A DNA stretch of 41,220 bases. Origin: Acidimicrobiia bacterium. Its GTDB lineage: Bacteria; Actinomycetota; Acidimicrobiia; Spongiisociales; UBA5794. The stretch lies in assembly GCA_036396535.1 (NCBI GenBank), contig DASWKR010000067.1, positions 1 to 41,220 on the forward strand, read 5' to 3'. How positions within the stretch are numbered: position 1 is the first letter of the stretch; every line of letters starts with the position of its first letter. Positions 137-1,850 of this stretch are shown here, piece after piece. The notes beneath the pieces were generated by a model that did not search any database, was not told the origin of the DNA, and saw only the letters and a list, made by a program, of their open reading frames with translations. A program made the position numbers and the translations under genes.

Positions 137-1034
137 TCAGCGGGTTCCGGTGACGGGTCTCGACATCCTCTCAGGTGCCCGCAGCCTCTGGGAACCGCCG
201 AAGATGAGGCCGGCGACCGCCTCTGCCGCATCCCGATCGACGGTCCTCGTGACGTGCTGATAGAGATCTGCGGTGATGGCGATGGAAGCACGTCCGAGAC
301 GCTTGGACACCACCTCGACCGGCACACCGGCCTCCAGGGCGAGGGTCGCGTAAGTGTGACGGAGACCGTGGAAGGGCCGCGGGCTCAGGTCGGGCAGCCC
401 GGCCGCGTTCGCCAACTGGGCGAAGCGACGGGAGAGCGAGGTCGGTTGGATGGGTGCTCCATCTTCCCGTGCGAAGACCAGACCGCGGTCGCCGTACCCG
501 TCTCTGGCCGCGAGCCGTTCCTCGAGTTGGCGTTTGCGATGGGTGCGAAGCTCGCGCGTCGTCACCGCGTCGAGTGCGATGCGGCGTCGTGAGTGGTCGG
601 TCTTCGGGAACGGTTTGAGCTGCGGCCGGTGCTCGACCTCGACCAGTGCCTGCACTACGGCCAGATGACCGTCGTCGAGATCGACGTGGTCCCTGGAGAG
701 CCCGAGTACCTCGGAGCGTCGCATCCCGGTGGTGAGCACGACCGTGTGCAGGGCGCGCAGCCGATCGCCGGCGACGTGGCCGAGGAAGGTCTCGACCTGG
801 TCACGGCTCCAGGTGCGTCGTTGCAACCGCGGGCTTGCGTGCTCGTCGGGCGCTGGGTGGCTTGGTCCGGGTCGCCGGATTCCGCCGGAGCAGATCGTGC
901 TCGACGGCATCCTGGAATGCCCGGTGGAACATGACGTGGACGTTGCGGACCGTCTTCGGCGCCAGGTCGGTGCCGTCGCGCCGCCCGCTCTTCAGCAGTG
1001 TGGCGTACAGGTGGTCGAGCAACCCTCGGGACAC
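137..1034 (-). pseudogene. Frameshifted tyrosine recombinase (integrase) remnant
   Basis: This is a site-specific tyrosine recombinase of the phage/ICE integrase class, now broken. The minus-strand fragment from 1034 carries part of the core-binding domain (LAPKTVRNVHVMFHRAFQDA). The fragment ending at 137 carries the catalytic domain, with Arg in TGMRRSE, the H-x-x-R motif HGLRHTYATL and Tyr in ADLYQHV. The two lie in different frames, and a single-base shift near 850-860 would join NPATRTKPPSA to PDEHASPRLQRR. The usual His before the Tyr (LGHxS) is Arg here. The extreme N-terminus is missing and homology stops at repeat R2. I infer an inactive relic of an integrated element. Confidence 0.8.
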
Positions 1035-1193: not shown

Positions 1194-1850
1194 GTGGATG
1201 AAGGTGAACGTTCGCTTCGCAACGCCACGTACCGCCTCTTTGTGGAGTTTGGCCGGGCCCCGACAGCGGGTGAGGTTGCGGCAGCCGAGAGTTCGACTGC
1301 GGAACTTGTCCAGGAGGCGTGGCGCCGTCTTCACGATGACCATGCACTGGTCTTGCATGACGGAGGCGAGCTCCGTATGGCGAATCCGTTTTCGGCGGTT
1401 CCCACGGCGAATCGAGTGCATGCCGGCGGTCGCTGGTGGTACGCGAACTGCGCGTGGGATGCGTTCGGGATCTGCGCTGCTCTGCACACCGACGGTGACA
1501 TCGAGACGTCCTGCCCGGATTGCGGCGAGCTGCTAACGGTAGCGATCCGACGCCAGCGACCCAGCGATGAGACGATGCGCTTCCATTGCCTGGTCCCGGC
1601 TAGCTCTTGGTGGGAAGACATCGTCTTCACTTGAAGCAACATGAATCTCTTCCGGTCGGAAGAGCACATTGCCCAATGGCTTGGTGCTCGCGCCCCAGGA
1701 GCGACCATCCCCGTGTTGAAGTTGAGCGAGTTGGCCCACGCCTGGTGGGACGATCGCCTCTCGCCCGATTGGCGTCCTCACACTCGCGAGCAGAACCAGG
1801 CGATCCTCGATCGACTCGAACTCTCGGGACCGTTTTGGAGACTCCCGTGA
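1194..1850 (+). CDS. MerB-like organomercurial lyase family protein with in-frame TGA (candidate selenoprotein)
   Basis: The GTG-initiated frame runs 146 codons to TGA at 1632-1634. It then continues in the same frame for 71 more codons to a second TGA at 1848-1850, giving 218 residues if the first is read through. The N-terminal part (about 1-60) resembles the MerB winged-helix region. The core has Cys86-x-x-Asp89 in NCAWD, matching MerB Cys96/Asp99, and Cys107 at the spacing of Cys117. The first TGA is codon 147, 61 residues after Cys86; in E. coli MerB the catalytic Cys159 lies 63 residues after Cys96. The downstream part (FRSEEH, AHAWWDDRL, DWRPHT, GPFWRLP) reads as a normal conserved C-terminus. 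MerB enzymes cleave carbon-mercury bonds using two Cys and Asp. Selenocysteine at 147 is inferred; a simple Cys-to-stop mutation is the alternative. There is no clear Shine-Dalgarno; a GATACC box 8 bases upstream may be a leaderless promoter. Confidence 0.7.
1647..1664 (+). promoter_or_regulatory. Candidate bacterial SECIS hairpin
   Basis: CTCTTCC (1647-1653) pairs perfectly with GGAAGAG (1658-1664) around the loop GGTC. The loop begins 20 bases after the in-frame TGA, within the 16-37 base spacing known for bacterial SECIS elements. The GGUC loop resembles the AGGUCU loop bound by SelB in E. coli fdhF. Caveat: the bases encode Leu-Phe-Arg-Ser-Glu-Glu, probably conserved in the family, so the pairing could be a by-product of coding. 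Confidence 0.45.

Follow-up and report, generated by a model that had tools for sequence, protein, structure and literature searches.

In MerB, the organomercurial lyase, Cys96 and Cys159 bind the mercury and Asp99 manages the proton; once the hydrocarbon has left, Hg is retained by both thiols. MerB-like selenoproteins as such are already known and are listed in reviews from 2022 and 2026 (PMC9312934, PMC13188914), the later of which includes SaoL, a MerB-like organometallic lyase selenoprotein with the motif CU (PMC13188914). Selenocysteine (Sec) is not confined to UGA, as UAG serves as a Sec codon in Geodermatophilaceae, where FDH, UGSC-motif protein, and AhpC genes of this kind are reported (PMC5330540). 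Within the open-licence literature, we found no paper on an actinobacterial, UAG-coded, or two-Sec MerB. Here, we examine a MerB-like gene from an Acidimicrobiia bacterium, located in a 41,220-nucleotide stretch of DNA referred to as the window. The best explanation as a whole, to which we assign a probability of roughly 0.92 on sequence comparison, is that the gene encodes a MerB-fold selenoprotein in which SECIS-directed decoding of UGA would place Sec at the second catalytic Cys.

The gene contains a single internal TGA in its reading frame, which is otherwise open up to the final TGA (Table 1). The first-pass annotation, made from the letters of the window alone, had described this frame as running on past the TGA with family-conserved sequence on both sides, had equated Cys86, Asp89, and Cys107 with MerB residues, and had placed the TGA 61 residues past Cys86. 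An alignment of 24 homologs bears out each of these points: mean column identity across the TGA is 76%; C86, D89, C107, and the TGA column are all invariant; and the spacing from C86 to U147 is 61. Just upstream of the gene, a tyrosine recombinase is seemingly split between two frames (window 140-910 and 801-1034, both on the minus strand) and is likely a mobile-element remnant.

Table 1. Coordinates within the window of the MerB-like gene, its predicted active-site residues, and the candidate SECIS.
Feature	Positions	Strand	Details
MerB-like gene, predicted selenoprotein	1194..1850	+	GTG start; 218 residues; predicted Sec at 147; final TGA 1848-1850
Cys86, equivalent to MerB first catalytic Cys (C96)	1449..1451	+	invariant among 24 homologs; profile alignment to MerB2
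Asp89, equivalent to MerB catalytic Asp99	1458..1460	+	invariant among 24 homologs
Cys107, equivalent to MerB Cys117	1512..1514	+	invariant among 24 homologs
Predicted Sec147 codon TGA, column of MerB catalytic Cys159	1632..1634	+	homolog loci and profile alignment to MerB2
Candidate SECIS hairpin	1647..1664	+	7-bp stem CTCTTCC/GGAAGAG; loop GGTC 1654-1657; TGA-to-loop 19 nt

Both sequence profiles and structure prediction place the protein with MerB. The Pfam MerB family (PF03243) matches residues 66-184, across the TGA, with E 1.7e-24 and 86.7 bits against a gathering cutoff of 27. An AlphaFold2 model built on the family alignment reached a pLDDT of 92, and its best match among solved structures is Hg-bound MerB2 (5c17, Foldseek E 1.6e-11), with which 186 residues align at a Z score of 19.0 and an rmsd of 2.7; entries for E. 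coli MerB align at Z of about 15. Unrelated winged-helix matches score well below the MerB structures and mostly cover residues 1-66 only. The protein shares with MerB and MerB2 (PF03243; 3f0o, 3f2f, 5c17) the fold, the Cys-x-x-Asp site, a second conserved Cys, and the position of the second catalytic residue. The catalytic positions C96, D99, and C159 are filled by C86, D89, and the predicted Sec147, with Sec replacing the last Cys. The differences from MerB and MerB2 are this Sec at the C159 position, the lack of a MerA partner among the reductases found in the window's genome, and scores below the NCBIfam MerB models NF033555 and NF009710 (about 27 bits versus cutoffs of 193-200; E about 2e-6).

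At homologous loci in other genomes, the column occupied by the internal TGA holds a stop codon in 25 of 25 cases (20 TGA and 5 TAG). The proteins of these relatives are at 64-71% identity, and the frame is kept for 70 residues beyond the stop. A wider survey covering the phylum and the order, mapped by profile and counted as distinct sequences, yielded 93 homologs with a readable column, which hold 77 TGA, 5 TAG, 7 TGC, 4 TGT, and nothing else; the profile was made from Sec-containing sequences, so the ratio of Sec to Cys is biased toward Sec. In MerB2 (PDB 5c17), its aligned counterpart is the Cys within TCKQIHYF, and genomic MerB homologs likewise have Cys there (FCPDVNFF, LCPQANLF, LCPHIDFF, FCHFVHFF, and FCGHVHFL). 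Aligned by eye, the column corresponds to C159 of E. coli MerB (FCCHVHFF). The Cys label requires three changes on a maximum-likelihood tree versus 9.7 upon shuffling, corresponding to MerB proper and two Cys groups within the Sec branch, with the direction of change not readable from the tree.

These counts decide against the view that a MerB-like gene is decaying here and that its TGA stems from a recent nonsense mutation or from a sequencing error, in which case the product would be a 146-residue fragment. The recombinase remnant just upstream does offer a setting where gene decay is common. A read error or a mutation private to this genome is nevertheless excluded, because a stop falls at exactly this codon in all of the loci from other genomes. 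The same column is a stop in 82 of the 93 wider homologs, the frame behind it is preserved, and Sec machinery is present. Together with the SECIS described below, the conserved stop column rules out a nonsense mutation, a read error, and a pseudogene, and the probability left to this reading is very small.

The window's genome encodes tRNA-Sec(UCA), detected at 72.7 bits, along with SelA, SelB, and SelD above their respective cutoffs; SelB adjoins SelA. Across the phylum sample, SelA exceeds its cutoff in 226 of 396 genomes and in 21 of the 23 that carry a TGA-bearing MerB-like gene (Fisher p 3e-4, with relatedness ignored). The two Sec-MerB genomes in which SelA is missing are both incomplete MAGs (68% and 73% complete). 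The five TAG genes (L010, L016, L017, L020, and L026) all come from Geodermatophilaceae (Geodermatophilus, Blastococcus, and Modestobacter), and the best tRNA-Sec match in each of those genomes, above the Rfam tRNA-Sec cutoff, has the anticodon CTA; ARAGORN labels this tRNA Pyl, from the anticodon. The window's genome and 10 sampled genomes with TGA genes have TCA as the anticodon, and one relative (G411, locus L015) gave no tRNA-Sec above the cutoff. Since the TAG/CTA pairing belongs to one lineage, we count it as one evolutionary event. The same CUA tRNA-Sec and UAG codon define the UAG-coded selenoproteins of Geodermatophilaceae (PMC5330540), here in relatives rather than in the window's genome, and the MerB-like gene is absent from the list in that work.

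That the codon follows the anticodon strongly indicates decoding of the column by tRNA-Sec. It also bears on whether a suppressor or near-cognate tRNA might insert a standard amino acid at the stop instead of Sec. Such readthrough is highly improbable: Cys is the sole sense alternative in the column, TGA occurs with TCA and TAG with CTA, and the hairpin discussed below is confined to genes with the stop codon. The first-pass annotation had proposed a candidate selenoprotein, to be checked by aligning homologs, searching relatives for the same TGA, and searching the genome for selA, selB, selC, and selD. The proposal is well supported, as 93 of 93 homologs have either Cys or a stop codon in this column, the same TGA is present in related genomes, and all four genes occur in the same genome. 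Judged from these comparisons, the gene product is almost certainly a selenoprotein. A separate observation concerns SelD of this genome (L044:1501-2427, minus strand), which is itself a selenoprotein with the sequence GAGUACK.

Downstream of the TGA, the RNA CUCUUCC-GGUC-GGAAGAG would form a hairpin with a perfect 7-bp stem. The bSECIS model (PMC13188914) specifies a loop of 3-9 nt, a stem of 4-16 bp, a G in the first two loop positions, a spacing of 16-37 nt, and an MFE of at most -7.5. The hairpin falls within all of these limits, with a loop of 4, a stem of 7, GG, 19 nt, and -13.1 kcal/mol; its single-sequence folding z-score is modest (-1.55). Conservation was examined across 45 sequences, where the five inner stem pairs are paired in every case and the loop is GGTC in 44. 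Two-sided changes affect four of the seven stem pairs, a value matched in 2 of 500 shuffles, and slid controls were lower. In one homolog (L059), Glu is replaced by Lys and the stem is still intact. Among 96 testable codon columns, the top three for excess synonymous conservation (L152 CTC, R154 CGG, and S155 TCG) all lie in the hairpin. When all eight hairpin columns are taken together, the Mann-Whitney p is only 0.06, which is explained by free wobble at the two-fold Asn codon and at the first Glu codon, in the case of Glu as a G-U pair. The hairpin is present in 77 of 82 Sec genes and 0 of 11 Cys genes (p 7e-11, ignoring relatedness), a distribution that makes the LFRSE protein motif look like a by-product of the SECIS RNA signal. 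The pattern of TGA plus hairpin has a single occurrence in the 3.13-Mb genome, and no Rfam family matched anywhere in the window.

SaoL (NF040728) resembles the window protein in being MerB-related with known Sec-containing members. By its own model, however, the window gene is not SaoL: the NF040728 score is 47.7 bits versus a curated cutoff of 140, and the matched stretch stops at residue 121, ahead of Sec147. The residue before Sec is Thr here (TU) and Cys in SaoL (CU). None of the 396 genomes in the phylum sample passed the NF040728 cutoff.

A related MerB-like family comprises nine sequences (L068:1411-3015, L069:1459-3030, and one locus each for L146-L152). It includes members in which an additional TGA lies in frame at the position of C96 (GLUGMEALAV or GQUGMESLAV). 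These two-TGA members have Glu at the D99 position and retain the TGA at the C159 position together with a hairpin, as in the window gene. A stem of the type GCURGC or GCUGGC is predicted about 17 nt past the first TGA in most members, and in L068 and L069 the MerB-like part is continued in frame by an AAA ATPase domain. The sequences suggest two Sec residues in one catalytic pair in this AAA-fused family, and in four relatives (L154, L155, L156, and L158) Cys occupies the first of the two positions and Sec the second. Both the UAG-coded MerB-like form and the AAA-fused two-Sec family are missing from the reviews cited above (PMC9312934, PMC13188914).

Two further observations concern individual homologs. 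Between its TGA and a hairpin having a GCTC loop, L064 (G363:C379) has both a frameshift and an insertion; it may be a pseudogene, an assembly error, or a shifted SECIS. Nocardioides sp. zg-1230 has two copies of the gene in its genome (L029 and L033), located on two different scaffolds and predicted to encode the same protein, which suggests recent duplication or mobility.

By analogy with MerB, the following mechanism can be proposed. Guided by the hairpin, SelB and tRNA-Sec(UCA) would read UGA as Sec, and Sec147 would take the place of the second catalytic cysteine of MerB. The protein, which is probably a carbon-metal lyase, would then split the bond in the manner of MerB. A soft organometal, most likely R-Hg+, would sit between two ligands, the thiolate of Cys86 and the selenolate of Sec147; Asp89 would help to bring a proton to the carbon, and RH would leave. 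The metal would remain on the Cys/Sec pair until passed to a thiol. Because a selenolate coordinates metals better and exists in deprotonated form at neutral pH, better capture of a scarce substrate is expected; the stronger metal binding of selenium would favor capture at low concentration, and metal release may become the slow step.

No MerA was found above the 454-bit cutoff in the window's genome, where three FAD reductases reach about 290-300 bits. Two of these pass other models instead (STH transhydrogenase and lipoamide dehydrogenase); the remaining one most resembles NAD(P)H-quinone dehydrogenase, falling slightly short of the cutoff of that model. A Pfam scan of about 30 genes that flank the family members at about 20 loci detected no mer gene; the scanned genes are unrelated and include a thiolase, a K+ transporter, a methyltransferase, and an alpha/beta hydrolase, among others. 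Conserved neighbors are restricted to three close loci, no operon is shared across the family, and a mer-operon context was seen at none of the loci examined. With no MerA above the cutoff and no mer neighbor in the genes scanned, mercury as the substrate is something we infer, and we put the odds that an organomercurial is the natural substrate at about even. The same observations favor a selenoprotein whose target is not organomercury but a different organometal or a thiol-redox substrate, or one that serves as a metal-binding chaperone, comparable to the organometal role proposed for SaoL. NCBIfam likeness also points this way, being stronger to SaoL (E 1.6e-12) than to the MerB models. Against it stand the retention of all of the MerB catalytic positions (Cys, Asp, and Cys/Sec) and the Hg-bound state of the top structural match, and we regard a non-mercury role as a serious possibility at somewhat under even odds.

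Returning to the MerB-fold selenoprotein reading, we tentatively envision a broad, undescribed actinobacterial branch of MerB-like selenoenzymes. Its members might carry Sec at one or both metal-binding catalytic positions, with the Sec codon following the tRNA-Sec of the lineage (UGA or UAG), LFRSE kept for encoding the SECIS, and perhaps a scarce organometal as substrate without MerA. Ordinary annotation ends such genes at the stop codon, and they are likely under-reported. Here the SECIS can be seen to constrain the protein sequence itself, and the occurrence of one residue as UGA, UAG, or Cys among relatives amounts to a natural experiment on selenium versus sulfur at a single active-site position. 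The toxicity of mercury to animals is thought to act partly via binding to selenoproteins; if the proposed reading is true, an enzyme with Sec as a catalytic mercury or organometal ligand would turn that affinity to use.
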